Source: Mesorhizobium sp.
Lineage (GTDB): Bacteria; Pseudomonadota; Alphaproteobacteria; Rhizobiales; Rhizobiaceae
Assembly (NCBI RefSeq): GCF_016793485.1
Contig: NZ_JAEULZ010000018.1
Span: 140,126 to 204,125 of the forward strand
Length of the DNA: 64,000 nt
Reading direction: 5' to 3'
In this document: positions 7,208 to 41,544 of the stretch, piece after piece
How the letters are laid out: the number at the start of each line of letters is the position of its first letter
Numbering within the stretch: position 1 is the stretch's first letter
The notes under the pieces: model-generated
Told to the model about the DNA's origin: nothing
Database searches by the model: none
Seen by the model: only the letters and a program-made list of their open reading frames with translations
Made by a program: the position numbers and the translations under genes

Positions 7208-7329
7208 ACCGCCGCTGGCCGGGCGGCGTTTCTCGTCCACTGCATTATCCGGTATGATTGATTCGATGCACGGTCGATTCGTGCCGCCCCATGGCCCGAA
7301 CTCGTGCCTCACAACGGAGGGAAATCGCC

Positions 7330-7584
7330 ATGGGCATTGAAAGTCTGATTGTATTCCTCATCGTCGGCGCGATCGCCGGCTGGCTGGCTGGGCTGATCGT
7401 CAAGGGCTTCGGCTTCGGCCTGCTGGGTAACATCGTCGTCGGTATCGTCGGCGCGATCATCGCGGGCTGGCTGTTGCCGCGTATCGGCCTCATCATCGGA
7501 GGCGGCATCATCGCCGACATCATCAACGCCGTGATCGGTGCGGTGATCCTCCTGCTCATCATTCGGCTCGTCAAACGGGCCTGA
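7330..7584 (+). CDS. GlsB/YeaQ/YmgE family stress-response membrane protein
   Basis: An 84-residue, almost wholly hydrophobic Gly-rich protein. The signature IVGAIAGWLAGLIVKGFGFG is followed by LLGNIVVGIVGAIIAGWLLP and a third helix ending in RLVKRA. The start at ATG 7330 has GGAGG nine bases upstream. Members are induced by general stress and sit in the inner membrane; their exact role is unclear. A further one-helix membrane protein follows 32 bp downstream. Confidence 0.88.
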   Translation: MGIESLIVFLIVGAIAGWLAGLIVKGFGFGLLGNIVVGIVGAIIAGWLLPRIGLIIGGGIIADIINAVIGAVILLLIIRLVKRA

Positions 7585-16492: not shown

Positions 16493-16960
16493 TTAAAACT
16501 CCGGCCAGATGATCACCGGCAATTCGCTGACGAAGCCGGCGATGGGTGGTGCTTCTCTTTGGCCGTTCATCGCCTTGTCGAGTTCGGCATAGGCGTAGAC
16601 CCAGACAGCATCGCGCCATGCGACGAAGGCAGCAGCCTCTTCGGCCCATTGTGGATTGGTTGAGCCGAGATAGCTGGCGATGCTGATAGAGCCGTCGTAG
16701 CGACGCGACTGCGCGGCCGCGTCGAGATGGGCGGTAATCGCCGCCTGGTAGTCCGCAAGATGAGGCACGGGCGGCACGACGCTCACGGCCTGACCTACGA
16801 TCCACCAATCCGCATTGTTGAGCGAGGGCGCTTCGGCAGCAAAGGCTTCAGGCCAGCGCTCGAGATAAGCCGAGATATGTGCCTGCGCTTCCGCATGCGT
16901 CTCGAATACGGCAAACTTGGCCGCGCGGTTGGCTTCGACGGCCATGATGGCTACGAACAT
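16493..16960 (-). CDS. Tail fibre-associated protein (DUF4376/assembly-chaperone-like)
   Basis: A 155-residue protein directly after the tail fibre gene (9 bp gap). The C-terminal half (YQAAITAHLDAAAQSRRYDG, then SYLGSTNPQWAEEAAAFVAWRD) has the helical pattern of DUF4376-like domains found at the ends of tail fibre operons. It is probably a fibre chaperone or fibre tip subunit. Confidence 0.65.
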   Translation of the reverse strand: MFVAIMAVEANRAAKFAVFETHAEAQAHISAYLERWPEAFAAEAPSLNNADWWIVGQAVSVVPPVPHLADYQAAITAHLDAAAQSRRYDGSISIASYLGSTNPQWAEEAAAFVAWRDAVWVYAYAELDKAMNGQREAPPIAGFVSELPVIIWPEF

Positions 16961-16969
16961 CTTGCAACC

Positions 16970-18586: not shown

Positions 18587-18648
18587 GTAAACCATGCCTC
18601 CGGAGGTGAGCTTGAAAAGTCGAAGAATTCGGAGTTCAGTGCGCGGCT

Positions 18649-19038
18649 ATGAGATTTTCACTCGCCATCGCCATGTTGATCGCCGCCGCCTCTACTGGGC
18701 ACGCTGGCTTCTATGAAGTTAGCCAAACCGATACGTTTTCCAGCTTGAGCCGCGCCTTCGAGGAAATCGCGGAGCGGACGGAAATCTCCGAACAGCCGGC
18801 GATCTCTGCCAAGCAGGTTGCAGCAGGTTGGTATTTCGTCGGTCCTTGCCAAGGCGTCGCCGCTGAAGTTCGCAATGCTGACACGGCCGTTGATCTGGTG
18901 GTGAACGCGAACCCGAAAACCCCTTACGGCAGCGCCATCCTTCAGATGGTCGGCGTCATGGTGCGCGAGAGCGTGCTTGGAAGGCAGCCGACGCCGAATG
19001 CCTGTGCATTTGCGAAGGCCATGGCGAACGCGAATTGA
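18649..19038 (+). CDS. Secreted hypothetical protein, antisense to the virion module
   Basis: A 129-residue protein with a clear signal peptide (MRFSLAIAMLIAAASTGHA) and two later cysteines (VGPCQG, PNACAF) that could pair in the periplasm. It is transcribed opposite to the tail and ejection genes and its last 97 bp overlap the 3' end of the 1411-aa gene. It behaves like a phage 'moron'. No family recognised; the overlap lowers confidence in its C-terminus. Confidence 0.6.
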   Translation: MRFSLAIAMLIAAASTGHAGFYEVSQTDTFSSLSRAFEEIAERTEISEQPAISAKQVAAGWYFVGPCQGVAAEVRNADTAVDLVVNANPKTPYGSAILQMVGVMVRESVLGRQPTPNACAFAKAMANAN

Positions 19039-25873: not shown

Positions 25874-25876
25874 GAA

Positions 25877-26365
25877 CTATGCCTGTGCGAACGGAGACCG
25901 CCCGAAGTAGGCAGCTCGATTGGGGTCATAGAGATTGGACAGGCCGGACACGAGATTTGACCCAGCGCTGAATATGCTCGCCGTGCGCGCCTGCTTACCC
26001 GAGTAGCGCGTGATTGACGCTTGGGTCCGCATATTGTTTTGCCGAAGCTGCGCACCGTAGCGAATGGCCTGAAGGTCAAGCTCGTTCTCGCGAGCGTTCG
26101 TTAGCAGCACCGCTGTCGGCGAACCTTCCAGCGCCACGCCGGACGCTCCGGCCTGTGCAACTGCATTCGCCCGTAGGAGGTCTTGCCGTCGCTTCTCACG
26201 CGCCGTCTCGAATGCTGTTGCCTGCGCGTCAGCTTGCGCCTGCTGCTCTTGCGCACGCGCCTGATATTCGGCCATCTGCGCTTGCTGCTGACCTTGCGCG
26301 AGAGCGCCGGCTGTCGAGATGCCGGTTCCAACGACAGTGAGCAGGGTGAGGGGATCAAGGCACAT
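25877..26365 (-). CDS. Internal virion protein, T7 gp14-like
   Basis: A 162-residue protein beginning MCLDPLTLLTVVGTGISTAG, with a short hydrophobic N-terminus, a long Gln/Ala-rich helix (QQQAQMAEYQARAQEQQAQA) and a Gly/Ser-rich C-terminus. This is the usual profile of the small ejection protein encoded next to tail tubular B in podoviruses. Gaps of 2-3 bp to both neighbours. Confidence 0.75.
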   Translation of the reverse strand: MCLDPLTLLTVVGTGISTAGALAQGQQQAQMAEYQARAQEQQAQADAQATAFETAREKRRQDLLRANAVAQAGASGVALEGSPTAVLLTNARENELDLQAIRYGAQLRQNNMRTQASITRYSGKQARTASIFSAGSNLVSGLSNLYDPNRAAYFGRSPFAQA

Positions 26366-26367
26366 GG

Positions 26368-28830
26368 CTACGGCTCTGCGTCAAAGACAGGTGTCATGGA
26401 GCGAATTGTGCAAGGCGTTGGACCATCGTGGACGATCTCAATCTTGCCTTGGCCTTCCCAGCTATCGTCGATCGGCACTTCGATGTTGCCGGTGTAGAGG
26501 TTCGCCTTACCGTCGGGCGGGACGACAGTCGGGATTTTCACCGACTCCCATTTGCCCCGCTGCTTCGACCGGATGCGCAGGCTTGTCGTGTCGGTTTCCA
26601 GCAGCGAAAGGATGACCTTGCCCACCTTCTTCCGGCGCCCGCCGAGAGAACCGTCACGACCACCGACATCGAGTTCCAAGGTCTCTGCCGTCGCAGGCCG
26701 CCTCAGGCCGATATGCGCCTTGGTGGCCGTTGCGGAACCGGGCAGCGTCACCGATCCAGACGCGACCGTCAGTTCCTTGAAGATTTTGCTATTTGCGAGA
26801 ACATCGACCTTTTGGCCTTCGAGGTGCGAGAGCCCGGAGAACGTGCCCACGGCAGAACCGGTGTAGGTCAGCCCACAATCGACCTGGAATGCGTCTTCGA
26901 GGGAACCGTACTCAAACGGCCCGGTCATGACCTCGATATAGCGCTTGGTGCTTCCGTTGATCGTCCGCTTCACGATCAGCCACACATCGTCCACGCCATT
27001 GTCACCAGGCGTAACGACCGCCCGCTCGACGACCGCACGACCTTCAGAGAAGGCGCCGCCGATTACCTGCCGATGCAGGCCTCGAACCTCTTGCGCGGGT
27101 TGATGCGTGTAGCTGCCGAGTTCGCCGCTATCGAGCGGGAACCAGACGATGGGATCAGGGTTCGATTGGAAGTCGATCGAGACGACACCCTTTTTCGGAA
27201 TGTGCTCGCTGATCTGTGCGACATCGTCAGACTGGAATCGGCCGGTCTGGTTGGCGACCAGTTCCATGATCGCTTTCCGGCTGGCCGACACGTAGAGGAA
27301 GGATGGTCCGGCATCGACGGGATCGATGGCAGCGCAGCCCGTGGTGCGCGACCGCCTGTTCTTGAACGATGACGGCTTCAGAGCCTCATCAATGCCCGAG
27401 CCTGACAGCGCGCGGATGCCGCCCGTCGTTGCCAGCAGCAGGAAGCCATCGGCATCTCGGAGCCAGACAATATCGTTCGCCTGCCCGCCGCCGGCATTGC
27501 GGAACACCATCGCGTCGTCATCTTCCTCGCCTACGCCGAAGTCTTCGAATTTGAACGACGCGGACAGATACGCTGAGAAGCGGCGACTCATTGCCAATCG
27601 CTCTTCGAAGACCTGCACCGAAGCGGGATACATCCCGTCGATGAACGTGCCGAGTTGCCAGCGAGAGATCGGCGTAAGGTCGGGGAGCGCATGGCCATAA
27701 AGCTGGACGGTAACGACCGTCGTGCTTGTCCGAGCAATGATACGTGCCCACCGCCAGCGGCCGTCGGACGCCATCAGGCGAATGGCGCGACCAACGTCTG
27801 TCGTCTGGAATCCCGCGCCGCCATTGATGCCGGTCACGGCCGAGGCCGTCAGGTTGAACGGCGTCTGGTCCGTGGCCTTACGGTGAATTCCGATCTCCGC
27901 AAGGTCCGCATTGTTGGCGTCGGGCCCCCCGCCTCCCTGGAAGTCGAAGCGGTAGTACTCATAAGCGACACTGTTCTCGAATTCAAAGAACCGCGTCTCA
28001 CTGTTTTGCCACGCAGTTTCACCTTTGCGGCTATCGAGCGTCACCCAGTTGGTGCCATCGTTCGAGCCTTTGAACTGCCAGATGCTCGGCATGTCGTCGT
28101 CCAACGTGTTATTGTTGGTCGACACGACATAATAGGCGTCGGCGATGACCTTCGCGCCGCCTGCCTGCCGATACTGGACATATCCAGCCGCGCCTCCCGT
28201 AAGAATATCGCCGGTATCCACGCTGCGATCGAAGACGCGCCATGCGGTCGACGACGAGTTCCCAGCCGCCACGGTACCGCTTGGCGCGGTATTGCTAGTC
28301 ATCGTCGGCGTGATCGAACCGTGAGCCGCTGGAGTGATCGTTGTGCCCTGTGTGTCTTCTTCATCATAGGGACCATCGTCGATGACGAACTGGGTAAACG
28401 ACCAGGTCGTGTGGCCGGTTCGCGTCAGCACTCGCGGCGCGTAAGACGGGTGCACGATCCACATCTGGTCGGCAGACTGGTAGAAACGCAGCCGCTCGAT
28501 ATCCGCTTCGAGATACGGCGTGGCGACTTCAAGCGAGCTGCCGACGCGGGAACCATAGGCATAGATGCGGATGTAGAGGTCGCCAACCTCCAGGCAGTAG
28601 GCTTGCTCCGACGAGTAGATAAACGGTATGAGGATCGTCTTCTTCGCGGAGTTCTTCACCTCAGCGCAGAAATACGTGCCACCGCGCTTGCGAATGCCGC
28701 CGTGGGGAAGCGTAATGAAGTTCTCACAGATCGCGAGGCCGGCTCGGTAGAGATCGAGCGATGCGCGCGCGTGCAGGCGCGGCGATAGCTCGCCACGAAC
28801 GAAAGTGTCCTGTGCAGGGAAGACCGCCAC
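26368..28830 (-). CDS. Tail tubular protein B (nozzle), T7 gp12-like
   Basis: About 820 residues. The chosen start is GTG 28830, immediately after the tail tubular A stop, because the family N-terminus is reached there (FVRGELSPRLHARASLDLYR, AGLAICENFITLPHGGIRKR). A reading beginning further upstream overlaps the previous gene. Beta-rich throughout, with ILIPFIYSSEQAYCLEVGD near the start as in other nozzle proteins. It forms the hexameric tail nozzle to which fibres and the ejectosome attach. Confidence 0.88.
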   Translation of the reverse strand: MAVFPAQDTFVRGELSPRLHARASLDLYRAGLAICENFITLPHGGIRKRGGTYFCAEVKNSAKKTILIPFIYSSEQAYCLEVGDLYIRIYAYGSRVGSSLEVATPYLEADIERLRFYQSADQMWIVHPSYAPRVLTRTGHTTWSFTQFVIDDGPYDEEDTQGTTITPAAHGSITPTMTSNTAPSGTVAAGNSSSTAWRVFDRSVDTGDILTGGAAGYVQYRQAGGAKVIADAYYVVSTNNNTLDDDMPSIWQFKGSNDGTNWVTLDSRKGETAWQNSETRFFEFENSVAYEYYRFDFQGGGGPDANNADLAEIGIHRKATDQTPFNLTASAVTGINGGAGFQTTDVGRAIRLMASDGRWRWARIIARTSTTVVTVQLYGHALPDLTPISRWQLGTFIDGMYPASVQVFEERLAMSRRFSAYLSASFKFEDFGVGEEDDDAMVFRNAGGGQANDIVWLRDADGFLLLATTGGIRALSGSGIDEALKPSSFKNRRSRTTGCAAIDPVDAGPSFLYVSASRKAIMELVANQTGRFQSDDVAQISEHIPKKGVVSIDFQSNPDPIVWFPLDSGELGSYTHQPAQEVRGLHRQVIGGAFSEGRAVVERAVVTPGDNGVDDVWLIVKRTINGSTKRYIEVMTGPFEYGSLEDAFQVDCGLTYTGSAVGTFSGLSHLEGQKVDVLANSKIFKELTVASGSVTLPGSATATKAHIGLRRPATAETLELDVGGRDGSLGGRRKKVGKVILSLLETDTTSLRIRSKQRGKWESVKIPTVVPPDGKANLYTGNIEVPIDDSWEGQGKIEIVHDGPTPCTIRSMTPVFDAEP

Positions 28831-28831
28831 G

Positions 28832-29449
28832 TCAGATTGTCCGCCGTGTGTCGCCACGCGCGCGCCAATCGCCGCGAGCATGATCCCAGCCGGTCGTATT
28901 CATCGTGCCGCCGCGCTCAAAAGCGTTCGCCGTCGTCGCCGCGTCGACCGCCTCATTGTAGAAGGCCAGCGCGCGCTCATACATGCTCGCCTTGTGCGTG
29001 AGCGGATGGGCGACTTTCTTTGCCAGCGCGCCGACGTAAACGTCGGTGAACAGCGCGCTCCAATCGTTCGGGTCGACCAGATTGGCGATGTACCGGATGA
29101 TCCGGGGCCCGGACTGGTCGCTGAAGATCGCATCGCCCTCGCGTCGCCAGTTCAGCAATACGCCATCGGGCTCGCCATTGTGCGTCAGCGGCAGGACACG
29201 CAGCGCGTCTTCAGGGACGGGATAGGACCAATTCAGCGTTCCGCCGCCAGTGTCCAGATCGGTCCCGGTGACCGTTTCGCGGAAGATCGCGAACACCCAC
29301 GCATGCTTCTGCAGTTCGACTTCGCGCGTGAGTTCGAAGTGCCGCTTGCACAAGCGCGCCGCCTTGCAGTCATCGTCGAGGCTGTCAATTTCAGCCTCCT
29401 CGAGAATGCCGATGGCCATGTTGGCGATGTCTTCCTGCGTGACGGGCAT
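28832..29449 (-). CDS. Tail tubular protein A (gatekeeper/adaptor), T7 gp11-like
   Basis: A 205-residue protein opening MPVTQEDIANMAIGILEEAE and containing CKRHFELTREVELQKHAWVF, typical of the podoviral gp11/adaptor ring. It lies between the capsid and the nozzle genes as in T7-like genomes. Twelve copies would bind the portal. Confidence 0.88.
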   Translation of the reverse strand: MPVTQEDIANMAIGILEEAEIDSLDDDCKAARLCKRHFELTREVELQKHAWVFAIFRETVTGTDLDTGGGTLNWSYPVPEDALRVLPLTHNGEPDGVLLNWRREGDAIFSDQSGPRIIRYIANLVDPNDWSALFTDVYVGALAKKVAHPLTHKASMYERALAFYNEAVDAATTANAFERGGTMNTTGWDHARGDWRARGDTRRTI

Positions 29450-29450
29450 G

Positions 29451-29633
29451 TCAGACCTTCATGTCGGTATGGCGCGGTGCGCGGCGCGGACGGCCACGGC
29501 TATCAAGCACCTGTACGAAAGGACTGGGGTTCAGCATTTCGGCAATGCGGCGATACTGCTTCGCGCGCCGGGATTTGCCGGAAGTGTCATCCTCGTGCTT
29601 CAGGCGCCGAGGCTTGGTCAGGCGGACGGTCAT
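29451..29633 (-). CDS. Small basic phage protein (60 aa)
   Basis: ATG 29633 has GGAG upstream. The product is very basic (MTVRLTKPRRLKHEDDTSGK, then SRRAKQYRRIAEML). It lies between the post-capsid hairpin and tail tubular A, with 1 bp to the latter. A virion minor or DNA-binding protein is possible; no family recognised. Confidence 0.6.
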   Translation of the reverse strand: MTVRLTKPRRLKHEDDTSGKSRRAKQYRRIAEMLNPSPFVQVLDSRGRPRRAPRHTDMKV

Positions 29634-29659
29634 CTTCAGGGATCTCCGGAAATGGAAAG

Positions 29660-29687
29660 AGGCGGGGAACCGTGGGGCACCCCGCCT
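29660..29687. terminator. Hairpin after the capsid gene (terminator or processing site)
   Basis: A perfect 8-bp stem AGGCGGGG / CCCCGCCT with a 12-nt loop lies 17 bp after the major capsid stop. On the minus (coding) strand it is followed by CTTTCC, a weak T tract, so partial termination or RNA processing is more likely than a full stop. T7 has its main terminator at the same place, after gene 10. Confidence 0.65.
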
Positions 29688-29704
29688 TTTGTTGCTTGAG
29701 CGGA

Positions 29705-30694
29705 TCAAGCCTCAGTCGTGCGCACTGCGACGAAGGTCATGGACTTGACGCTGGACGCCGTGCGGTCCCAGTTCGCTGCCAGCGCAAGCTCTGCATCGGT
29801 GGCGAACTCACCCGCCGTCGATGCATCGAGGAAGCGCGTGCCGGGAACGTGAGGCACGACGTGACGACGGCCGACCATTTCGGTAACGCCGCCGCCATGG
29901 CCCTGACGGGGCTTGCGGTCGAACTCCAGCGGTCCACCGTCGCCGGTAACCGGAAGTTCGTTCCACTGCACCGCCCGCTGCTTCATGAGGAACGACGTGT
30001 ACTTGCTGGTCGCAATCGGCAGATCGTCGTCCGCAACGCAGCGGAAGCCCATGTAGGTCGGGATCAGCACGCCGCCCTGTTCAGACGAAGGGATGAAGTC
30101 GATCAGGTCGGCCTTCTTCAGCATCTTCATCTGCTTCGAGTGCATCCACCAGACCTTGAAGTCGCCCGCGCGGTCGCCCTGGAGGTAGGCGGCATCGATG
30201 GCGTCTTCGTCGGTGATGGAAATGCCGGTATCGAGGACCATGTCGCCGGAGTCGTTGGCGATGTTGTCCGCGATCACGCCCTGAAGCGTGGCGATGATCA
30301 TCTTCTTGTTGGCGCGCTGCCAATACTCGGTCTGAGCATCAACCGCACGCTTCACGGGATCGTCGCCGGCAAGGATGGCCGTCAGATCGGCAAAGCCCCA
30401 GGACTGGGCACGGATGTTGCGAGCAGCAACCTCCCTGCGAGTGCCCATCTTCTTGAGCTCGATCGAGTCCGACGGATCGTCGTTGACGGGTTCCGAGGAA
30501 TCGTTGCCGAGGTCTTTCCAGCCGGGCATGTCGACGGTGCGACCGCCCATGCTCAGCTTGGCCGTGATCTCAGGGTCGGAGTAGAGCACCCCGGCCTGAA
30601 AGATTTCGAGGCTCTGCACGTGAGCTTCGAAAGCGTAGTTTGCGTACACGGACGGAACGATGGAGTCCGTGATCCTGGTCCAGGCGTCAGCCAT
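29705..30694 (-). CDS. Major capsid protein
   Basis: A 329-residue protein, one gene after the scaffold and directly before the post-capsid hairpin. Sequence features fit a HK97-fold coat protein of the podoviral coat family: SVYANYAFEAHVQSLEIFQA near the N-terminus, MGTRREVAARNIRAQSWGFA, and VWWMHSKQMKMLKKADLIDF. Position and size match T7 gp10. GGAAGAAG precedes the start. Confidence 0.85.
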   Translation of the reverse strand: MADAWTRITDSIVPSVYANYAFEAHVQSLEIFQAGVLYSDPEITAKLSMGGRTVDMPGWKDLGNDSSEPVNDDPSDSIELKKMGTRREVAARNIRAQSWGFADLTAILAGDDPVKRAVDAQTEYWQRANKKMIIATLQGVIADNIANDSGDMVLDTGISITDEDAIDAAYLQGDRAGDFKVWWMHSKQMKMLKKADLIDFIPSSEQGGVLIPTYMGFRCVADDDLPIATSKYTSFLMKQRAVQWNELPVTGDGGPLEFDRKPRQGHGGGVTEMVGRRHVVPHVPGTRFLDASTAGEFATDAELALAANWDRTASSVKSMTFVAVRTTEA

Positions 30695-30731
30695 GGTCTT
30701 CTTCCTTCATGGAAATGCGCGGCCGCCCCGA

Positions 30732-31631
30732 TCAGCGGGGATTGTTGGGCATCCACTTGTCCGGATTTTCTCCGGCCTCGACTGCCAACTGCCGTGCGCG
30801 TTGAGGGTCGCTTTGCACCAGGGCGGAAATCTTCGTGATGCTGCGGTTCCCGCTGGCGTCCTTCTTGAAGGGGTTCTCGCCAGTGTTGATGCCGCCGCCC
30901 GGAAGATTGTCTTCCTTGAACATCGCCTCGCCGATCGCCGAGAATGCTTTCGCGATCTGCGGATCGGTCAGTGCCCCATCGGGGAGCAGGATGCCTGAGG
31001 CCTTGTAGGAATCCACAAGGCCGAGGTTCTTCATTGCCCGATTCGCGAGTTCCAGCTTCGTCTTGTAGCCTTCACTCTCTGTCGGTCCCCAGTCCTTGAC
31101 CAGCGCGTCTGCGGTATCCTCGACCGACTTGGCGACCGCCTGAAGGCGAGCCTGCGTCTGTTCGGCCATGTACCCGACGAACTTGTCGTGCACCTTCTGA
31201 GCCTGCCCGGAGTTGAGCCCGGCTTCCGCCATCCATGACTTGGACGCCGTCGCCAGTTCTGCCGAGTAAGGCACGTTTTCGGGGAGCCCTTCCGGGCGCT
31301 TGAAGTCCAGCTTGTCAGGGGACTCGACCGGCCGCAGGTTCTCAGGAAGGCGGTCGTAGAATTTCTTCCACTCTTCCTGCGATGCATCGGCTGCCGGTAC
31401 GGTGACCGACGCGCCAAGCTTCTGCTCGCCGTGCATGCCGGCCGTGGCCAGCGCTTCGATGTCCTTGTAGCCCTTGGTCTCGACCCACTTCCGGGTGCCT
31501 TCGGAAAGACCGGAGAATGGATTGTCACCGCCCGCAGGAGACCCGTTTGGCGCGGGAGGCGTTGGCGTTGCAGGGGTGCCCGCCGGAGGCGTTTCAGCCT
31601 CCACGGACCCGGCAGGAGCCGCTTCTGTCAT
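30732..31631 (-). CDS. Scaffold/capsid assembly protein
   Basis: A 299-residue acidic, low-complexity protein directly upstream of the capsid gene. Residues 1-40 are Pro/Ala/Gly-rich, followed by GYKDIEALATAGMHGEQKLG and long helices, ending in a basic patch (QRARQLAVEAGENPDKWMP). This is the standard layout of podoviral scaffolding proteins. AAGGA precedes ATG 31631. Confidence 0.82.
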   Translation of the reverse strand: MTEAAPAGSVEAETPPAGTPATPTPPAPNGSPAGGDNPFSGLSEGTRKWVETKGYKDIEALATAGMHGEQKLGASVTVPAADASQEEWKKFYDRLPENLRPVESPDKLDFKRPEGLPENVPYSAELATASKSWMAEAGLNSGQAQKVHDKFVGYMAEQTQARLQAVAKSVEDTADALVKDWGPTESEGYKTKLELANRAMKNLGLVDSYKASGILLPDGALTDPQIAKAFSAIGEAMFKEDNLPGGGINTGENPFKKDASGNRSITKISALVQSDPQRARQLAVEAGENPDKWMPNNPR

Positions 31632-31704
31632 AAGGATTTTCCTTTTCAGGATATGCGGCTCACCCAGCCGCAGGGATCAAGCCGGCATCGATCCGGCCTA
31701 TTGG

Positions 31705-32280
31705 TCAGGCGTTGTCGCCCCAGTTCTCGACGAACAGCGTCAGCTTGCCGTTGACCGAGAGAATGCCGTCGCCGTCGATGTCAGTGCCGGTGGCGAAGGC
31801 GAAGTTCATGAACAGGTCGACCGCCGTGGACGTGCCGTCCAGCGTGATCGCAGTGCCGACCACGTCAGCAGGAGAGGCAGGCGATGGAGCCGCCACAGCT
31901 CCAGTCAGCGTGCGGGTGACCGTATTGATGATGTTCTGCATCGTGGTCGCCAGTGTCGCCGAGGATGCAGCGGCCGAGCCGATGCCCCAGGTCAGCGACG
32001 CCGAGTCGTTGATCGTCGAAGCGCGCGCCGTGTCGACGCCGAAGGTGAACGTGCCCGTACCACCCTTGATGCGGATTTTGCCCTCGACAAAATCGAAAAG
32101 CTTTTGGCTCGCATAAGCCAGCGCGTCGGTGACGGTGACCTTCATGTTGGTGAAGGTGAAATCGAGACGGTATGCGCCGCCCTGTCCGCTCACCTTGCAG
32201 GCGAGACCGGCTTTGGGGACAGGTTTGCCGAGCTGCCGCATAGCGGCGCGCTGGAGCGTTCGCGGAAGTCCACGAGCCAT
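31705..32280 (-). CDS. Putative head decoration/structural protein
   Basis: A 191-residue, Thr/Ala/Gly-rich and probably beta-rich protein (IRIKGGTGTFTFGVDTARAS, SVNGKLTLFVENWGDNA) with a basic N-terminus. It lies between the Bbp19-like small gene and the scaffold. No family is recognised; a surface-decoration or stabilising role is guessed from composition and place. Confidence 0.55.
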   Translation of the reverse strand: MARGLPRTLQRAAMRQLGKPVPKAGLACKVSGQGGAYRLDFTFTNMKVTVTDALAYASQKLFDFVEGKIRIKGGTGTFTFGVDTARASTINDSASLTWGIGSAAASSATLATTMQNIINTVTRTLTGAVAAPSPASPADVVGTAITLDGTSTAVDLFMNFAFATGTDIDGDGILSVNGKLTLFVENWGDNA

Positions 32281-32332
32281 GATCGTATTCCTTCATTCTT
32301 GGGAGGGATTGTCGGCTGTCCCCGCCGAGGGG

Positions 32333-32668
32333 TTATGCCTGCCCTTCGAGTTGGGCAGCCTTCTGGAGTTCGATCATCTTCTCGTCATCGAGCGCCAGAA
32401 AATCGAGGATGGTTTGCACGACCTCAGCGCGAGCGGTGCAGAGCGCGCAGTGCAGTTCGTAACCAGCAGGGCTACGGGTGCTGGCGATCCATTCGGCATA
32501 GTTCGGTCGCCTGAAGAACCCCGCCTTATCCGTGAGGTGCACGAGCAGCATGTCGGCATCTGCCTTGCTGCCATTGCCCTGAAACAGTCGACGCACCGCC
32601 AATGCAAGATCGGCCTCAGCCGCCGCCAGACCCTTCGCCTGGCGGGAGAATGCGAACCAGTTACGCAT
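32333..32668 (-). CDS. Small phage protein between portal and scaffold (Bbp19-like?)
   Basis: A 111-residue helical protein starting at ATG 32668, which overlaps the portal stop by one base (TGATG). The pattern LALAVRRLFQGNGSKADADM followed by FFRRPNYAEW and a closing helix resembles the small Bbp19-type phage proteins, but the match is by eye and weak. Gap of 52 bp to the next gene. Confidence 0.55.
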   Translation of the reverse strand: MRNWFAFSRQAKGLAAAEADLALAVRRLFQGNGSKADADMLLVHLTDKAGFFRRPNYAEWIASTRSPAGYELHCALCTARAEVVQTILDFLALDDEKMIELQKAAQLEGQA

Positions 32669-34374
32669 CAAGCGTTCCCAGCCGGGATCAGGCCGGCATC
32701 CCGCGCTTGCACGGCGGCCGGTATGGCATCCTTGGCAAGCTGGCCTGCCTGCGTCAGCGTGGCGAGACCCTGTTGAGCCTGCTTCTCTTTCGCTCGACCG
32801 TCACGCAGCGCCGCGACCTCGTCTCGCGACCGGAGCAGCCTTTGCGGCGCGCGGCTCGCATCCTTCTTGATGCGGATGTACTCGTCGCTGTCGATGTTAT
32901 CCATGATGCTCGGGTCCTGCGAAGCCGTGGCGACCTGCACTGCCGAGTTGACCACCATGTCTGCGTCACGCGACTCCGCAGCCTTGCGCAGGATGTCCAG
33001 CGGGCTTGTGAAGGTCGGACGAACCGTCTTGCCCGCCAAACTTTCAGGCGGAAGGTAGCGGCTGTCTTCCGCGTACAGGCCTTTCGCCTCAAGGATGGCA
33101 AGCTCACGATCGAGATTGGCGGCGAAGCCCGCCTGAATGATCGAGCCCGACGGGCCGAGTAGCTGGCCTTTTTCTTCCTGCCGGATCAGCGCCTCAGTCG
33201 CCGTCATCTGCGGGTTCTGAATGAGCGTCTGGAACAGGTTCACGAACAGCATGTCGCGAATTTCTTCCGCTCGTGATGCTGCATACTCGAAGGCCGGCGC
33301 GGCGTTGGCGCCCGTGTTGATCGGCACGATGAGCGGTTGGCCGCTGTCACTCACCAGCCCAGGATAGTTCTGTCCGGGGTTCAACACCGGAACCACATCC
33401 AGCTTGGCCTTGGACGCGGTCGACGGGTCTGCCATTTGCTGAAGCAGTCGCAGGCCTGTCCGGCGAACCGCATTGATCTCGCGAATGGTGGTCAGCGCAT
33501 CGATCATCGGCGACGTGCCGTAAGTGTCGTCTTCGTACCGCCGCCAGTTGAAGCAGGAGACCGGGAACGAACGGAACCCGCTTTCCTTGCCGATCGCCTC
33601 TTCGTCGCAGATCACGTGGTGCGAGACGAACTCCGTATCGAGGTAGCCGGACGGCTGATTGCCAATCCGGTACATCCGGCGTTCGTTGCGAGGCCTCACG
33701 CTCTGAAGCAGCGTGATCTTCGTCTCGCACTTGTCGGGATCGTCGACCAGCATCTTGATCTTCGGCGGGAGCTTTTCATAACCGAAGAGCTGGGCAGCCT
33801 GGCGCGCGGTCCTGCGATACTTCCGATGGAACGTGTCGGCGATGCCCCAGCGATTGCGGGCAATGTAGGCTTCGTGTACCGGGACGGATGCATAACGGAT
33901 CAGCGTTCCGGCGAAACCTTCCTCCGCGTAGAGATAGGCCGGGCCGTAGAACACGACGTTCCGAAGGCAGGATTGTGTGCCCGGAACGAAGTTAGAGTTC
34001 GCCGAGTAGCGCAGCGAGAACAGGAAGTCGCGGAGGTCTTCCGCCCATTCCTTTTCTTCGTCGGTTTCTTCGTCGTTGATGGCGGCCGTCGAAAGACCAT
34101 GCCACTTTTCCGACTGGGGAATGATCAGGCTCTCGACGCCGGCAGTCAGCCGGTTGCCCGCAGAAATGGCCGTGTTGTCGTACACCCGGCTTCCACGCTG
34201 TTGCGCGCGGCTGGTCTGCGTCGACTGATCGCCGCTAAACCGACCTGAGAACGAGCTTGGCGCATCGGGGTCGCAGAATTCGGCAACGGCTTCCCATGCC
34301 GCCTCATAGGGGCGGCGAACCGCCTCCATCTCAGTCTGCTTGTCCAAGGCCTCACGAGCGCGTGAATCCGACAT
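32668..34374 (-). CDS. Portal (head-to-tail connector) protein, T7 gp8-like
   Basis: A 568-residue protein of the podoviral head-tail connector family. Seen are EMEAVRRPYEAAWEAVAEFC, VESLIIPQSEKWHGL, YGTSPMIDALTTIREINAVR and NPQMTATEALIRQEEKGQLL, which follow the connector layout, and an Ala-rich C-terminal barrel-like tail. Twelve subunits would form the DNA-packaging vertex. It overlaps both neighbours by one base. Confidence 0.92.
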   Translation of the reverse strand: MSDSRAREALDKQTEMEAVRRPYEAAWEAVAEFCDPDAPSSFSGRFSGDQSTQTSRAQQRGSRVYDNTAISAGNRLTAGVESLIIPQSEKWHGLSTAAINDEETDEEKEWAEDLRDFLFSLRYSANSNFVPGTQSCLRNVVFYGPAYLYAEEGFAGTLIRYASVPVHEAYIARNRWGIADTFHRKYRRTARQAAQLFGYEKLPPKIKMLVDDPDKCETKITLLQSVRPRNERRMYRIGNQPSGYLDTEFVSHHVICDEEAIGKESGFRSFPVSCFNWRRYEDDTYGTSPMIDALTTIREINAVRRTGLRLLQQMADPSTASKAKLDVVPVLNPGQNYPGLVSDSGQPLIVPINTGANAAPAFEYAASRAEEIRDMLFVNLFQTLIQNPQMTATEALIRQEEKGQLLGPSGSIIQAGFAANLDRELAILEAKGLYAEDSRYLPPESLAGKTVRPTFTSPLDILRKAAESRDADMVVNSAVQVATASQDPSIMDNIDSDEYIRIKKDASRAPQRLLRSRDEVAALRDGRAKEKQAQQGLATLTQAGQLAKDAIPAAVQARDAGLIPAGNA

Positions 34375-36634: not shown

Positions 36635-36813
36635 CGGAATTCCCCCAGCGGATCGGACACCGTGACCGGCGCAGGCTTCCCCGTATCCATCGGCTCGATC
36701 TCATCCAGATCGGCAAAGGGCTTCTTCGACTGCCCGACGATCTCCCCGGATGCGACGTGGATTTTCACGTACGCTTCCAGATCCTCGTCATAGCTCTGGA
36801 CGAACGCGGTCAC
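36631..36813 (-). CDS. Hypothetical phage protein (60 aa)
   Basis: It starts at GTG 36813 overlapping the terminase C-terminal stop, and its stop overlaps the next GTG. Acidic (YDEDLEAYVKIHVASGEIVG). No family recognised; the coupled starts and stops support expression. Confidence 0.45.
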   Translation of the reverse strand: MTAFVQSYDEDLEAYVKIHVASGEIVGQSKKPFADLDEIEPMDTGKPAPVTVSDPLGEFR

Positions 36814-37565
36814 CGGAAACCCGCCAGCGGATCAGACTGCACCGTGGCGGCTTTCACCGCCTTGAACGATGCAGGATCAACCACTGCCTCACGCAACATC
36901 ATCATGGCGTAACGCGTCGCTGACATCAGATCGTCCCGCAGCTTCACGATGGCCCCATCCTTACGGTGATAGAGCCGGAATTCTTCGAACCATTCGTTCA
37001 GGTGCTCGAAGACCTTGAACCGGCCCGTCTGCATGCGGTCCAGCATCTCCATGATGCCGGCCTCGACCGAGACAGAGCCGTCCGGGAATTGCGCATGCGT
37101 CGGCAGCATGTTCAGCCCGGCTTCCGTGTACTGCTTGGCCAAGGCGATGCCCGCGCCTTCCAGTGTTTCGCGCCGGCCGTCTCGTGGCCATGACCACGGC
37201 AGCCAATGACCCCATGGCCGAAGTGCGACCGCCTGCATCGCTGGCGTCTGTTGCGATGCCCGATGCGCCTTCGTCACGTAGACGATGTCCGCTTCGGTAT
37301 CCCACGCAAGCTCGACGCCGGCCGAGGGATGGTCCCAACCGAAGTCGAGACCGCCGATGCGCGGCCAGAACTTCGGAATCCTGATCGGTGCAATGGTGAT
37401 GTCCGTTTCAGGCACCGGGAAGATACGCCCCGAGCCGAGAACCGGCACACCGCGAGCCCGAGCTTCACGCTCATGAGCCGGATATGCCTCAATGATCGCT
37501 GCCCGCTGCTCTGGCGTGTAGTGCTCAGCGTCGTCGATCGTCATGAAGGTGACGTGTCGCGTCAT
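36810..37565 (-). CDS. Large terminase, C-terminal nuclease part (separate ORF)
   Basis: A 251-residue protein with the RNase-H-like nuclease half of TerL: first acidic strand IGGLDFGWDHPSAGVELAWD and a late acidic region (LRDDLMSATRYAMMM). Before it, DDAEHYTPEQRAAIIEAYPA is the usual linker sequence after the ATPase. Its ATG overlaps the ATPase ORF stop (ATGA), so the two halves are probably produced by coupled translation. In related phages these are normally one chain of about 500 residues. Confidence 0.82.
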   Translation of the reverse strand: MTRHVTFMTIDDAEHYTPEQRAAIIEAYPAHEREARARGVPVLGSGRIFPVPETDITIAPIRIPKFWPRIGGLDFGWDHPSAGVELAWDTEADIVYVTKAHRASQQTPAMQAVALRPWGHWLPWSWPRDGRRETLEGAGIALAKQYTEAGLNMLPTHAQFPDGSVSVEAGIMEMLDRMQTGRFKVFEHLNEWFEEFRLYHRKDGAIVKLRDDLMSATRYAMMMLREAVVDPASFKAVKAATVQSDPLAGFR

Positions 37566-38281
37566 CGCTTGGCCTTCACCATCGCCTCGACCTGCTCAGG
37601 CGTCAGGAACATCAGCACGACTTCCGACATGCCGAGCAGAGGCGTGAACGTGATCATCGTGATACCGCCCGTCGCGTTGGTGCGCGTCAGCCCCTCGCTA
37701 TAGATGTCCTGCGGCGGCTCTTCGTCGAACCAGACGCCATCGAGCGTCGGACCCTGCCACTTCTCACGTCCCATCTCGTAGGACTTGAAGCCGAGGACGC
37801 TTTGCCCCGCCTGAATATCGCCGCCGCCGCCATGGCGAACCACGATGCTATCCAAGGCGTTCGGAATGCCGCGACTGGGGAACGTGTCGACGATCGCGTC
37901 GCCGGGGATCATCCCGGTTCCCCATTCCGACTTCTTGGCCGGATCACCGACCAGCATCTTTTGCACGGTGTCGCGGGTTGAGCCCCCAGTCAGGCCCGCC
38001 GCCCACATGGCGACCGGCTTGCGGAATACCTTGCCGTCCCACCAGTTCGGATAGCGACCGCTGAGGTGCATCGCCCATTCAGCGCCGCCGGCCAGCGTCT
38101 TCCCAAGCTGGTTGCCGGCCATGAACAGGCGTTCGCGATGTTCGGCGCCGGCAATGTGGAATGTGCGCTGCTTGGCGTAAGGCTGATAGTTCGCCAGCCT
38201 GTTACGGCTCTTCCGCCTTTCCTGTTCCTCCAGCAGCAGGAGCAGTTCCCGCCTTTCCGAGGAGTTCAGCGATTCGAGCAT
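37562..38281 (-). CDS. Large terminase, N-terminal ATPase part (separate ORF)
   Basis: From ATG 38281 (GAGG upstream) the product is 239 residues. Walker A is FMAGNQLGKT and Walker B is DGVWFDEEPP, with the coupling motif TFTPLLGMSE near the end. It stops as KAKR at 37562, in the middle of a normal TerL. The C-terminal nuclease continues in another frame. Without both halves packaging would fail, so either the split is tolerated or the prophage is defective. Confidence 0.85.
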   Translation of the reverse strand: MLESLNSSERRELLLLLEEQERRKSRNRLANYQPYAKQRTFHIAGAEHRERLFMAGNQLGKTLAGGAEWAMHLSGRYPNWWDGKVFRKPVAMWAAGLTGGSTRDTVQKMLVGDPAKKSEWGTGMIPGDAIVDTFPSRGIPNALDSIVVRHGGGGDIQAGQSVLGFKSYEMGREKWQGPTLDGVWFDEEPPQDIYSEGLTRTNATGGITMITFTPLLGMSEVVLMFLTPEQVEAMVKAKR

Positions 38282-38735
38282 CAATGGCCTCGTCAGACGT
38301 GGTCTGGAGCGAGCCGGCAACGTTCAGGTCCAGCGTGCGGCCGTATTTCTTCGGCTTCAGCTTCTCAGCGATCCATTGCCGCGTGCTGACCCGCAGAGCA
38401 GACCGCCGCAGCGCTTCGCCGTTCTCTGCGTAGCCGATCACCTCGCCGTCCGAGTTCTTCCGCTCCATCCAGTCGTTGGAGCCGTCGTCGGCGATATCCG
38501 TCATCTCATCGACCAGCACATCGGCCTGCGCTTCGCGCGCATACGCGTACTTGGTCCGGAATGATTCGCGAGCCGGATCAGCGAGCCACGCAAACACCGT
38601 GGACTTGCCCGGCATATCTTCCTGTTCGCAGATAGACCTCAGCGAGCGCCCGGAAGCGATCTCGTCACAGATGTATGACGCTACCTCTTCCGAGAACTCG
38701 CTTGGCCGCCCCGCCTTACTGCTGGCTTCCGCCAT
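38202..38735 (-). CDS. Terminase small subunit
   Basis: A 177-residue protein from ATG 38735. A HTH region (GRPSEFSEEVASYICDEIAS, RSICEQEDMPGKSTVFAWLA) is followed by helical oligomerisation segments (LRVSTRQWIAEKLKPKKYGR) as in Sf6-like small terminases. It overlaps the TerL start by 80 bp and the upstream gene by 20 bp. It recognises the packaging site on phage DNA. Confidence 0.8.
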   Translation of the reverse strand: MAEASSKAGRPSEFSEEVASYICDEIASGRSLRSICEQEDMPGKSTVFAWLADPARESFRTKYAYAREAQADVLVDEMTDIADDGSNDWMERKNSDGEVIGYAENGEALRRSALRVSTRQWIAEKLKPKKYGRTLDLNVAGSLQTTSDEAIDARIAELLGKAGTAPAAGGTGKAEEP

Positions 38736-39060
38736 CTTCGCCTTCCGTCTTGTCGGTCTCAGGCTCGACAGGCGTATCCTTGCCCTTCTTGCCGCGACCA
38801 GTCTTGCCGGTCTTTGCCGCTTCAGCCTTGGCTGCCGACTTCTCGCGGACCTTCGCCACCGGATCATCACCGGGGAAGCCCCACTCGCCGGCCTTCTCGA
38901 TACCGCCGCCGCGCACCATGCCAATCTTCACGCCCTTGTCGATGCGCTCGACCTTGGCATTGCCTTTGCGCACGTCGGGTGCGCCGCCTTCCATCTGTGC
39001 GATTGCACTGATGACTTCCTGACCTTCGTCGTTGGTGACGATCGTCGCCCAGCGTTCCAT
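38716..39060 (-). CDS. Hypothetical phage protein at head of the late operon
   Basis: A 114-residue protein; AAAGGA precedes ATG 39060. The N-terminal half is acidic/neutral (EGQEVISAIAQMEGGAPDVR) and the C-terminal half is a Lys/Ala/Glu-rich low-complexity tail (KSAAKAEAAKTGKTGRGKKG). It is the first protein gene after the tRNA-containing leader. Function unknown. Confidence 0.55.
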   Translation of the reverse strand: MERWATIVTNDEGQEVISAIAQMEGGAPDVRKGNAKVERIDKGVKIGMVRGGGIEKAGEWGFPGDDPVAKVREKSAAKAEAAKTGKTGRGKKGKDTPVEPETDKTEGEDGGSQQ

Positions 39061-39228
39061 GTGTTTTCCTTTCAGGGGTTGCGGGGGGATTTTCCGGCGC
39101 CGACGCTTTCCCGGTGTGTTATGCGCGCCCTCGCGAGCGCCCGTCCCCCACCAGGTTCCTCTTCAGAAACGAGCGAACAGCTTTCTCCGCATAGCCGGCA
39201 TAAGCGGCGGATTCTCGGGGACGGCGAA

Positions 39229-39305
39229 TGGTTGCAGGGATCGGATTTGAACCGATGTCCTCTCGGTTATGAGCCGAGCGCGCGACCGGGCTGCGCTACC
39301 CTGCG
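39229..39305 (-). tRNA. tRNA-fMet(CAU), initiator type, phage-encoded
   Basis: A full 77-nt cloverleaf on the minus strand: 7-bp acceptor stem with the C1 x A72 mismatch that marks initiator tRNAs, D stem GCGC/GCGC, anticodon stem CTCGG/CCGAG with loop CTCATAA (anticodon CAU at 39269-39271), variable AGGAC, T stem ATCGG/CCGAT, discriminator A, and CCA encoded. The anticodon stem ends in CGG/CCG rather than the classic three G-C run GGG/CCC. It lies in the leader of the virion operon. Confidence 0.9.
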
Positions 39306-39664
39306 AAACGTTCCCCACCGCGACATGTGCAGTCAGGGGAACGCGCCGTTTCGAACCGACGACTTCCGGGAAAGGGAGCTACCCGCGCCCGGCACGCTGG
39401 CCCCGAGAAAGCCCGGAGCCGACCTGTTGCGAGGCAGGGCGACGAACTCCTGCATCTCTTCGCGCCATCGGCGCTACTGGCCACCTTCCATCAAGAGCGG
39501 TGGCGCGACGGAAGTCCGTTCCGTCCTCTCGCGTCTCTGAATTTTCGGAAATGCTTCGCAACGCGCCCAGGATCAGCGCATTGCGCCTTCGTTCCTGAGC
39601 CGGGACCGTCCCGCTGGCAGCGCCCGAAGGCCCCCAAACAGTCGAACGGTTCATCCGCAGCGCT
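39306..39664 (-). other. Untranslated leader of the late operon
   Basis: About 360 bp between the candidate promoter and the tRNA hold no convincing gene. A perfect hairpin, GACGGAA / TTCCGTC with a 5-nt loop, lies at 39507-39525. This is the kind of space where an antitermination site for the adjacent NusG-like protein could sit; that is speculation. Confidence 0.4.
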
Positions 39665-39693
39665 TATGTAGATTATTTGCACGATTTCCGCAA
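39665..39693 (-). promoter_or_regulatory. Candidate sigma70-type late promoter
   Basis: On the minus strand TTGCGG (39688-39693), a 17-bp spacer and TACATA (39665-39670) fit -35 and -10 boxes. It lies between the NusG-like gene and the tRNA/virion operon, the natural place for the late promoter. Confidence 0.5.
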
Positions 39694-39747
39694 GGATCGG
39701 GTTTCACGTGCAACAATTCACGAAACGAGAGCAGAACAAACGCCAGA

Positions 39748-40404
39748 TTACGCCGCTTTTGGCTTGCTGCGCTTCTCCGTTTCCTTGAGCTGGTCGGCTT
39801 CAAACTCGACAGGCGTCATCCGCCCGAAGATATCGACGAGGGCCACCACGCGATCGTCATGGCTGAGATGATCGATTTCGGCGAGGAACGTTTCGAACGG
39901 CCCGTCTTCGACCCGGAAGATGCGACCCTTCGCAAAGCGGCTTTCCATCTTGCTCCGGTTCGTCTCGCCCCGAGCCCGCTTGCCGGCCGCCGTCGTATCG
40001 TACACGGAATTGAACTCTTCCTGCATGATGATCTCGATGACCCGAGCAGGAACACGCAGCGGCCCGTCATGACCCTTGAGCGGCCCGAGCACGCCGTTGA
40101 TGCCAGTCTTCCCGTCCTTGCTCTGCACGACCTCCCGCCAGTCATCCCGCGCCAGTTGCTCGCTGCCATCCTTCCGAGGATGGACGATGAACACGTAGCC
40201 AGGCAGCAGCGGCACGTTGCGCTCGACCCAGACGCGCATCCGACGGTTCTGATTATCGTAACGACGACGCGGCAGGTATGTGTCGTACCCTTTGCCGGCG
40301 AGTTCTTCAAAGATGGAGTCTTCCATGCCGGCCCGAACGCGCAGGATGAACCAGCGTCGATCGTCGACCGTCATGTTCATGCAGGAAGGCACTGAGATTT
40401 TCAC
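39748..40404 (-). CDS. NusG/RfaH-like transcription antiterminator
   Basis: A 218-residue protein starting at GTG 40404 (AAAGGGA upstream; overlaps the previous stop). Residues ~14-125 are a NusG N-terminal domain (RWFILRVRAGMEDSIFEELA, the loop NVPLLPGYVFI). Residues ~165-210 are a KOW-like domain (FAKGRIFRVEDGPFETFLAE, VALVDIFGRMTPVEFEADQL). It would bind RNA polymerase and let it read through the long leader or the post-capsid hairpin. It is the last gene of the early leftward operon, directly before the late promoter. It is a paralogue, not the host nusG, which normally sits with secE and the ribosomal-protein genes. Confidence 0.85.
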   Translation of the reverse strand: MKISVPSCMNMTVDDRRWFILRVRAGMEDSIFEELAGKGYDTYLPRRRYDNQNRRMRVWVERNVPLLPGYVFIVHPRKDGSEQLARDDWREVVQSKDGKTGINGVLGPLKGHDGPLRVPARVIEIIMQEEFNSVYDTTAAGKRARGETNRSKMESRFAKGRIFRVEDGPFETFLAEIDHLSHDDRVVALVDIFGRMTPVEFEADQLKETEKRSKPKAA

Positions 40405-40634
40405 TGCTTGGTCCCTTTGTGCGCGTGAGCCATTTTGATGAAAGAGGCGGCATCGCCCTTGATCGCGTCCAGCCCGGCGAGCATCGTCTTTTCGTCGCCG
40501 CCGAGCTTAATCAGGAACACGCCGATCGCGGTTGACAGTGCAGCGCCGCAGACCTCGATGTCCTTGCCGAGCATGCTGATTTCCATCTTGCGCGACAGAG
40601 CGCGGATCGACTGGTGTTTCTGTTCAGGTGTCAC
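40401..40634 (-). CDS. Hypothetical phage protein (77 aa)
   Basis: A helical protein (MTPEQKHQSIRALSRKMEIS, MLGKDIEVCGAALSTAIGVF) whose stop overlaps the NusG-like start. No family recognised; coupling suggests it is co-expressed with the antiterminator. Confidence 0.55.
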   Translation of the reverse strand: MTPEQKHQSIRALSRKMEISMLGKDIEVCGAALSTAIGVFLIKLGGDEKTMLAGLDAIKGDAASFIKMAHAHKGTKQ

Positions 40635-40665
40635 GTTCTGATGCTCCTGTTCTTATACCGTTCCA

Positions 40666-41544
40666 TCAAGCGGCCCTCCGTTTCTTCCGCGTCTTCCGGA
40701 ACCATTGCACCGCAATTGACCGCCAGATCGGCACCTTGTGCGTAGCACTGAAGACCTTCGCCTCCTGCTCCACGGACTTGCCCAGGATGACGATGGCCTG
40801 CGACAGGTCGATCGCCTCGAACTCGTTGCAGTATTCCGGATCGGTCATCAGAAGTTCAGCGGCCTTGATGTGGTTGGCCTCGATCGGCGACAGAGCTGCG
40901 TTGGCTAGGACGTCCAGGATCACGCGGGCCTTCATCGCACCGCGCTTGTCGACCAATGCGCGCAACTGGCTTATGGCGACCGTCTCGCAAGGCTTGAAAT
41001 CCGCGCGGCTCGGAGGCATCCGCAAGATCGTGATGCCGGCGCGGCCACACACCTGCTCGATGGTCAATGCATCCTCGTCGCCGGCCACGACTGCTGCGCG
41101 ATGGATTTGAAGCGCAGTCACGCCCAAGCGCTCCGTGTTCTGCCCGACGAACGCTGCCGCTTGGACGGCGGTGTCAGCAGCCTCGACGATCATCACCGGG
41201 ATCATGTCAATGTCCGGATGGCTGGCGCATGCGATGGCCGTGTGTTGCCCGTCGATAACCTTCAGGACAGACTTACCGTTGTAATCCGCGTAGGCGCAGA
41301 TCGGCGGCTTGTATTTCGTCCAGTCAAAAGCCTCGATGATCTTCCGGATCTGACGAAGGCCGCGTTCGCCGATTCCTCGCTGGTAGGCCGGGTCGACGAA
41401 CAGCGTCTTGGGATCGACACGCTCGCAGATCGGCTCACCGTTTTCAGGCGCCGCCGTGTCCAGACCTTCGATGTTGATAGGCTCTATAGGCCGCAGATCG
41501 AGCACCGGGACTTCGCCGGGATCGGGATAAGCTTCATCCGACAT
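40666..41544 (-). CDS. ParB/Srx-like nuclease-domain protein
   Basis: A 292-residue protein. The ParB-like core is seen as VDPKTLFVDPAYQRGIGERG, then YKPPICAYADYNGKSVLKVI and DGQHTAIACASHPDIDMIPV, which matches the 'x-DGxHR/T' motif of the family. A helical C-terminal half with a basic end (RKTRKKRRAA) follows. Stand-alone phage members are linked to DNA binding, nicking or modification. It overlaps the previous gene by 11 bp; no ParA partner is present. Confidence 0.75.
   Translation of the reverse strand: MSDEAYPDPGEVPVLDLRPIEPINIEGLDTAAPENGEPICERVDPKTLFVDPAYQRGIGERGLRQIRKIIEAFDWTKYKPPICAYADYNGKSVLKVIDGQHTAIACASHPDIDMIPVMIVEAADTAVQAAAFVGQNTERLGVTALQIHRAAVVAGDEDALTIEQVCGRAGITILRMPPSRADFKPCETVAISQLRALVDKRGAMKARVILDVLANAALSPIEANHIKAAELLMTDPEYCNEFEAIDLSQAIVILGKSVEQEAKVFSATHKVPIWRSIAVQWFRKTRKKRRAA

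Follow-up and report, generated by a model that had tools for sequence, protein, structure and literature searches.

In the 64,000-nucleotide stretch of Mesorhizobium sp. DNA analysed here (the window), a podovirus-like prophage passes from its early to its late genes at a junction whose layout is a real, recurring module. With moderate confidence, we consider this module to combine a phage NusG gene, a late promoter, a structured leader, often a tRNA-Met gene, and terminase and virion genes, and to serve antitermination recruited through the leader. The genes can be identified, their order recurs in other phages, and in relatives a covarying RNA element, termed R1, precedes the terminase genes. 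RNA binding, recruitment, antitermination and their timing would then proceed as follows: host polymerase would start at a late promoter directly behind the NusG gene, the nascent leader RNA would fold, and the phage NusG would bind the elongation complex through the leader RNA, as LoaP does, and remain on. The polymerase would from there on resist Rho and terminators across the late block of about 23 kb, and in the window prophage the part of the signal would fall to the skipping-rope RNA or to a diverged hairpin domain. Considering the analogy with LoaP, which depends on a leader hairpin, and the linkage of R1, we infer that late antitermination based on NusG is likely. The module idea is backed more by comparison than by the window itself.

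The junction and its NusG paralogue

The window region is the early-to-late junction of the prophage. On the minus strand, the NusG paralogue is followed by a 687-nt gap with a promoter-like site and a tRNA-Met gene, and then by the small (TerS) and large (TerL) terminase subunits and the virion genes (Table 1), while the early side, at 40.6-47 kb, encodes a ParB-like protein, a DNA primase and a helicase (Pfam, PHROG). A preliminary description of this DNA had named a NusG/RfaH-like gene as the last early gene and placed a tRNA gene in the leader, and both are borne out, the former by an ORF with Pfam as well as PHROG matches. The first virion gene that it expected right after the leader is less clear: the first ORF there, of 114 aa, matched neither a Pfam nor a PHROG family, and the first recognisable virion gene is TerS. 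The late operon was overestimated at roughly 27 kb, as the late block on the minus strand measures 22.6 kb from 39060 to about 16493. A Pfam search of the 91-aa ORF inside the gap gave no match, and a Pfam search for a T7-type polymerase was without match, but so were its controls.

Table 1. Features of the prophage junction and late block, in window positions.
Feature	Position	Strand	Details
NusG paralogue, 218 aa	39748-40404	minus	NGN + KOW; PHROG 6386 'transcription antiterminator', 1.4e-22
Gap from NusG paralogue to 114-aa ORF	39061-39747		687 nt
Promoter-like site TTGCGG-N17-TACATA	39665-39693	minus	54 nt past NusG stop
Alternative framing CTTGCG-N17-CTACAT	39694-39666	minus	
Folded 5' leader domain	39556-39638	minus	7-bp GCCUUCG/CGAAGGC stem around a hairpin
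ORF inside gap, 91 aa	39379-39654	minus	overlaps skipping-rope RNA
Skipping-rope RNA, RF02924	39426-39535	minus	51.3 bits (gathering 36.7), E 2.8e-9, model 1-80 of 80
tRNA-Met (CAT)	39229-39305	minus	ARAGORN; Rfam RF00005, 61.6 bits; CCA encoded
First ORF past leader, 114 aa	38716-39060	minus	close relatives 42-56% identity
TerS	38202-38735	minus	PHROG 1482, 3.1e-44
TerL, two overlapping ORFs	36810-38320 (37562-38320 + 36810-37565)	minus	Pfam Terminase_6N, Terminase_6C; PHROG
Remaining late block	16493-34374	minus	portal, major head protein, tail proteins, endolysin-domain protein, tail fibre

We propose the product of the NusG paralogue as the late antiterminator. Its NGN domain matches PF02357 (Pfam NusG, 1.9e-10, residues 17-126), and residues 149-207 match the KOW domain of NusG in PDB (phmmer, 3e-6). 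A profile from eight relatives matched NusG over its full length and RfaH chains only at the N-terminal domain. Single-run AlphaFold2 modelling with 11 sequences (mean pLDDT 75.4) returned an alpha/beta N-terminal domain, with the KOW as C-terminal beta strands at 162-208. The genome itself holds two NusG matches, the prophage copy and a second, stronger one elsewhere, which is taken as the host's own copy. Single-sequence scans for close relatives retrieved none in the genome or viral contig collections, and relatives were reached only by a five-sequence profile over both. The NusG-like genes found in this way and in 397 genomes of the order share some 21-39% identity in the best segment, and are located partly in phages and partly outside them. 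The NusG part of the module is already annotated in public phages.

Two further features of the late block were noted. TerL is divided into N- and C-terminal ORFs at the identical point in the window and in the viral locus L169; among relatives, the two matched parts are adjacent in L316-L318 and up to about 2.6 kb apart in L329, L339 and L345, as if the joint were an insertion hot spot or TerL a stable two-gene protein. A 129-aa ORF on the plus strand (18649-19038), with a start that by eye resembles a signal peptide, runs convergently towards the late block's end and overlaps the 3' end of a 1411-aa ORF.

R1, a covarying RNA behind NusG genes of related phages

Leaders behind NusG genes share an element, R1 (score 50 for L055 with L094 and 42 for L055 with L046, where 600 shuffles reached 36 at most). 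It spans about 75 nt and was first modelled from six sequences. Its parts are a 5' tag (GGUGA), a variable hairpin enclosed by a GGC/GCC and a GCG/CGC stem, and a last hairpin that has UCACC in a loop of about 10 nt. The six-sequence model matched L048, L056, L057, L058 and L059, which are outside its training set but close to its members, at E-values from 2.5e-14 to 4e-11, the next match being noise (E 1.5). The prophage L044, identical to the viral locus L054, remained sub-threshold (E 0.16), and the Sinorhizobium phage phiLM21 reached E 0.29 with the six-sequence model and 1.4e-8 with a model R2, whose training set included phiLM21. R1 looks like a new RNA family. Rfam scans at the gathering threshold gave no family at its position in 13 loci with an R1 or R1-like match (L046-L048, L055-L059, L063, L094, L316, L317 and L385), and the literature, as represented mostly by titles and the beginnings of abstracts, yielded no leader RNA tied to phage NusG paralogues.

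Except for L055 (z -2.04; the skipping-rope stretch of the window has z -1.30), the leaders do not fold with energies clearly below those of shuffles, so covariation alone was used as evidence for an RNA. Over 16 sequences with 22 pairs, those of the tag-loop helix among them, both sides have changed at 11 pairs in 32 cells, which none of 500 shuffles equalled, and the number of pair types was equalled by 1 of 500, a control that is not a probability as the segment ends were chosen by us and the sequences are related. In total, 92.9% of the pairing cells pair, against a shuffled mean of 83.0% and 46-62% in slid controls. The last hairpin accounts for 21 of the 32 cells changed on both sides, and the tag-loop helix for 2, both from L055.

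A first R1 pattern found 4 viral contigs. Searching the viral collection with a strict core pattern gave 59 stretches, in which tag and loop were compared. All 35 loci with GGUGA have a UCAC loop, UCACC in 34 of them, and co-changed combinations occur as GACGA-UCGUC (L400), GGCGA-UCGCC (L428) and AGUGA-UCACU (L430), with four more AGUGA loci carrying UCAC. Tag and loop can pair in 42 of the 58 assessable loci (L449 is cut off), and pairing is missing in 16, namely 10 of the 15 AGUGA loci (another last hairpin, no UCAC), 3 with GAUGA and 3 with a loop and no tag. Thus, the main group gives good support to a pseudoknot, which some branches lack. Swapping tags and loops barely favoured own pairs (5.38 versus 4.97 swapped). 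Within the AGUGA subgroup, a last hairpin of CCGCC..GGCGG type without UCAC is present in L396, L408, L420, L427, L447, L450 and near copies, and in each of the six named loci the NusG gene lies 35-37 nt upstream.

R1 is linked to NusG as well as to the terminase. Upstream and on the same strand, a NusG-family ORF is present at 47 of the fetched R1 loci, at 35-65 nt in 40 and at 0.6-2.2 kb in 7. The records of 56 of the 59 strict stretches hold a NusG paralogue, four being added to the 47 via other loci of the same contig (L302, L422, L433 and L444, through L063, L057, L385 and L056) and five by the whole record, hence with no distance (L397, L416, L425 and L446 by PF02357, L401 by the family profile). 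The three stretches where NusG is absent are L305, whose R1 is 30 nt short of the end of the contig, L443, a 4.3-kb fragment, and L424, a 20.7-kb record whose locus includes 3.2 kb upstream. TerL was detected at 33 loci, with six different queries all backed by annotation or Pfam, and at every one of them it follows R1 on the same strand at 0.56-4.5 kb; many of the 26 R1 loci lacking a TerL match are cut short. Downstream on the same strand, tRNA-Met was found within 1.3 kb at 21 of the 53 R1 loci scanned (6 of the 59 fell outside the scan), and none of these linkage counts is independent, since many contigs are near relatives. In the Rhizobium phages RHph_TM3_3_3 and RHph_N28_2, a gene annotated 'NusG-like transcription antiterminator protein' has R1 directly behind it and TerL later on.

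Bacterial genomes were sampled as well. Of 397 genomes of the order, 3 contain R1, always with a NusG paralogue at most 2 kb upstream (2 of the 3 were in the training set). In 394 genomes of the family, R1 was found at 11 places in 10 genomes; NusG is directly upstream at 6 of these places, and at the other 5 some 11 kb of upstream sequence gave no NusG match. R1 and NusG are therefore not inseparable, and a strict one-to-one pairing is weakened. One of the NusG-less loci, L468, has TerL 1.8 kb downstream, another (L465:11066) is behind a phage integrase gene (Pfam), and in L467 and L469 the tag is degenerate by eye, the genome of L469 holding a second R1 with NusG. Possibly, these loci (L465-L469) are satellites or remnants that use NusG in trans. 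The R2 model had no match in 385 genomes of the class, an empty result that is uninformative given no known positive in the sample.

The best promoter-like site ends 12-21 nt ahead of R1 in 12 of 13 loci, with scores of 8-9 of 12 that random stretches equal in 12% and 1.5% of cases, so that R1 would sit near the start of the late transcript. Such a position would also fit a late switch at initiation, exerted by an activator or host signal at the late promoter, with NusG the last early gene by chance and R1 a separate 5' UTR element that controls translation or stability, and the five loci of the family sample without NusG fit this as well. That account is improbable in our view, as it is at odds with NusG in the records of 56 of the 59 viral stretches and within 65 nt at 40 of the 47 fetched loci. 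The location of R1 behind NusG and a promoter-like site, and ahead of the terminase, in many alphaproteobacterial phages speaks for a late switch made up of NusG and leader as a device that recurs.

The order seen in the window is also repeated as a whole. The prophages L044 and L047 (identical to L055, from Kaistia dalseonensis) have a NusG paralogue, a TTGACA-type promoter within a few dozen nt, a leader, tRNA-Met, TerS and TerL, where TerS was called by Pfam in L044 and by eye in L047. RHph_TM3_3_3 shows the order NusG-like gene, tRNA-Met, DUF2280 and TerL, and phiLM21 the order antiterminator, HNH, tRNA-Met, TerS and TerL, the tRNA being on the opposite strand in the record and a tRNA-like match on the plus strand in our scan. 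For phiLM21-like prophages, a 2025 study describes an antiterminator in all those studied, and a single tRNA gene in 15, tRNA-Met in 10 of these and tRNA-fMet in 4 (PMC12429752). Whole-region DNA similarity to named phages, in the 30 of 49 matching records listed, covers only the tRNA part of the query.

Relatives of the window were further gathered by TerL. Of 80 fetched, 13 have a NusG-like match, many stretches being short upstream, and R1 was found at E 1e-8 in 3 near-identical ones (L380, L384, L385) of 59 searched. L316 and L317, among the closest to the window (80% identity in the C-terminal part of TerL, about 70% in the portal), both have the NusG paralogue and an R1-like match, in L316 at 21.4 bits (E 0.16) some 25 nt behind the NusG stop and in L317 at 29.9 bits (E 3e-4). 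L318 (TerL 80%) has NusG and no R1 match at E 2, and L327, L335 and L341 (TerL 72-76%) have a match to neither. The tag-loop readout helps the module reading; the misses among close relatives weigh the other way.

The window leader and its skipping-rope RNA

A conserved ops- or put-like leader element, which the preliminary description had envisaged for related prophages, thus exists as R1 in many relatives, and in the window it went undetected, with no match above 7 bits to the R1 or R2 model in 38560-40480 with filters off. The leader instead holds a full-length skipping-rope RNA, absent from that description. The 'perfect hairpin' reported there does exist (7 bp, 39525-39507, minus strand), and according to the Rfam alignment it is the first hairpin of this RNA. 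Two RNAs are thus recognised in the leader, the skipping-rope RNA and the tRNA.

The tRNA-Met has a C1.A72 mismatch, its first pair being non-standard in the Rfam alignment. We take a mismatch at 1:72 to be an initiator tRNA trait, and the gene appears initiator-like. Closer to the NusG gene, the second part of the folded 5' domain is a hairpin of about 10 bp with a 9-nt loop in the minimum free energy structure. The domain is as stable as its shuffles (z-score 0.03) and has no match to the R1 and R2 models; it is a possible, unproven candidate for a diverged R1 analogue.

The promoter string that had been described 55 bp after the NusG gene as sigma70-like is present, 54 nt on, yet its strength did not hold up. 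It has 6 of the 12 sigma70 consensus letters by hand count, a sigma70 consensus scan of 38500-41000 retrieved no promoter, and no site in the gap does better than 7 of 12, a score reached by 55% of 90-nt stretches drawn at random from related loci. Alphaproteobacterial promoters follow the consensus CTTGAC-N17-CTATAT. Compared with this, the window site scores 9 of 12, a value reached by 2.5% of stretches drawn at random from the window and, with the gap shuffled, in 9.4% of cases. Nor did a profile from the promoters of 19 non-redundant R1 loci, with 20 loci lacking a G[GAT]TGA tag left out, give the site a special score: the best leader match ranks 277 of 127890 and is elsewhere, and the match holding the TTGCGG-N17-TACATA site ranks 1222. 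The window promoter is weak and near chance level. Together with the undetected R1 and the 5 of 11 family-sample R1 loci without NusG, this counts against the module reading.

Skipping-rope RNAs are an orphan family for which we know of no function. To place the one in the window in context, we used a gapped pattern, replacing an earlier one that was too loose, and kept 21 of 25 viral matches; L284, L293, L294 and L301 were dropped by eye, the remaining motif being missing. No NusG match is present near any of the 21, some of these loci being short, and 13 have a tRNA. L169 (TerL about 61%) carries its skipping-rope RNA ahead of the terminase and is without NusG match in a locus that includes 2.2 kb of upstream sequence, and 13 terminase-related loci have no skipping-rope RNA. 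Hence, in our view the element is a known RNA, which may have stepped into the role of R1 or may not.

Several features surround these RNAs. In L280, L282, L290, L295, L190 and L300, only a few nt separate the start of the skipping-rope RNA from the 3' end of a gene for tRNA-Phe or tRNA-Met. Several loci have a tRNA-Trp about 100 nt beyond it; this proximity suggests co-transcription or co-processing with phage tRNAs. In three other genomes (L039:7093-7654, L040 at 6941-7334, oriented, and L041:6947-7484) the RNA is followed by a convergent ORF, which in L039 encodes a PBECR3 nuclease-domain protein (Pfam 2e-8, above cut-off) and in L041 has a sub-threshold PBECR3 match (1e-4). Directly before the RNA of L169, a terminator-like hairpin and T run were noted by eye (L169:2150-2210, oriented).

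Presence of tRNAs at 13 and of NusG at none of the 21 loci, a window without R1, and a KOW domain like that of ordinary NusG rather than RfaH would all suit a NusG paralogue that acts globally and needs no leader signal of its own, for instance by taking the place of host NusG or by weakening Rho on every phage transcript, with the leader a stable-RNA cassette (skipping-rope RNA and tRNA) expressed from the late promoter. We consider such action rather unlikely, as it leaves unexplained the near-fixed distance of R1 behind NusG, and its place before TerL, across different terminases.

As to the window itself, the skipping-rope RNA occupies the leader in place of R1, and its third hairpin has a loop, AGUUCGUCGC, similar to that of R1 in L055, AGCUUCGUCG, hinting that it may have replaced R1 as partner of NusG in this prophage. 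Seven base pairs, one of them G-U, could form between that loop and the 5' tag of the window. This pairing was tested and is not significant, the complementarity being near chance (p 0.04 for shuffled loops, and equalled by 35 of 571 leader 10-mers), and the replacement would be a single instance with no NusG nearby at any of the 21 other loci, which makes it very doubtful. Similarly slim are the prospects of the full scheme in which phage NusG is recruited by its own pseudoknotted R1, the RNA half being swapped here for a skipping-rope RNA that would dock NusG on the polymerase.

Relation to known antiterminators and implications

Phage leader signals that modify the polymerase include the put RNA of HK022 and the N/nut and Q/qut systems of lambda; put acts without a protein, and lambda N and Q are not NusG paralogues. 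Leader-recruited antitermination by NusG, the reading preferred here, has its closest likeness in LoaP of Bacillus velezensis and its dfn operon, which likewise combine a NusG paralogue, a structured leader hairpin and a very long operon; in the published account, LoaP activity depends on the leader hairpin, and LoaP and the dfn hairpin achieve antitermination in vitro without further factors (PMC12691694). LoaP is, however, a gene of Gram-positive bacteria that recognises a UNCG hairpin and serves antibiotic operons (PMC12691694), whereas the module has a phage gene, in relatives a multi-helix RNA with a possible pseudoknot, and virion genes.

RfaH is similar in being a NusG paralogue that acts on long, horizontally acquired operons, and two accounts report paralogues adjoining their target for loaP, taA and upxY (PMC7593976, PMC7819879). 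The ops element of RfaH works as DNA within the paused complex, and the free RfaH KOW is helical and autoinhibitory and can refold (PMC7593976, PMC7819879), whereas the KOW of the window resembles NusG and the leader element of relatives covaries like RNA. In phiLM21 and phiLM21-like prophages an antiterminator, NusG-like in one record, also ends the early region and is followed by tRNA-Met and the terminase; their virion genes differ, and the part of the account available contains no leader RNA (PMC12429752). RHph_TM3_3_3 and RHph_N28_2 differ from the window in having R1, the former sharing tRNA-Met. Finally, the window leader holds a full RF02924 match above gathering, whereas the 21 viral copies of that family have no NusG match nearby.

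If the proposal is correct, a group of rhizobial temperate phages would use a third route to late expression, neither a T7-type polymerase nor lambda Q, in the form of a NusG paralogue with a dedicated leader RNA. Such a compact and genetically linked protein-RNA pair in tractable soil bacteria would permit tests of what directs NusG paralogues to their targets, and would turn the annotation 'antiterminator' into a testable mechanism. It would also offer a candidate context for the orphan skipping-rope RNA and, if the swap were true, the first function of that family.
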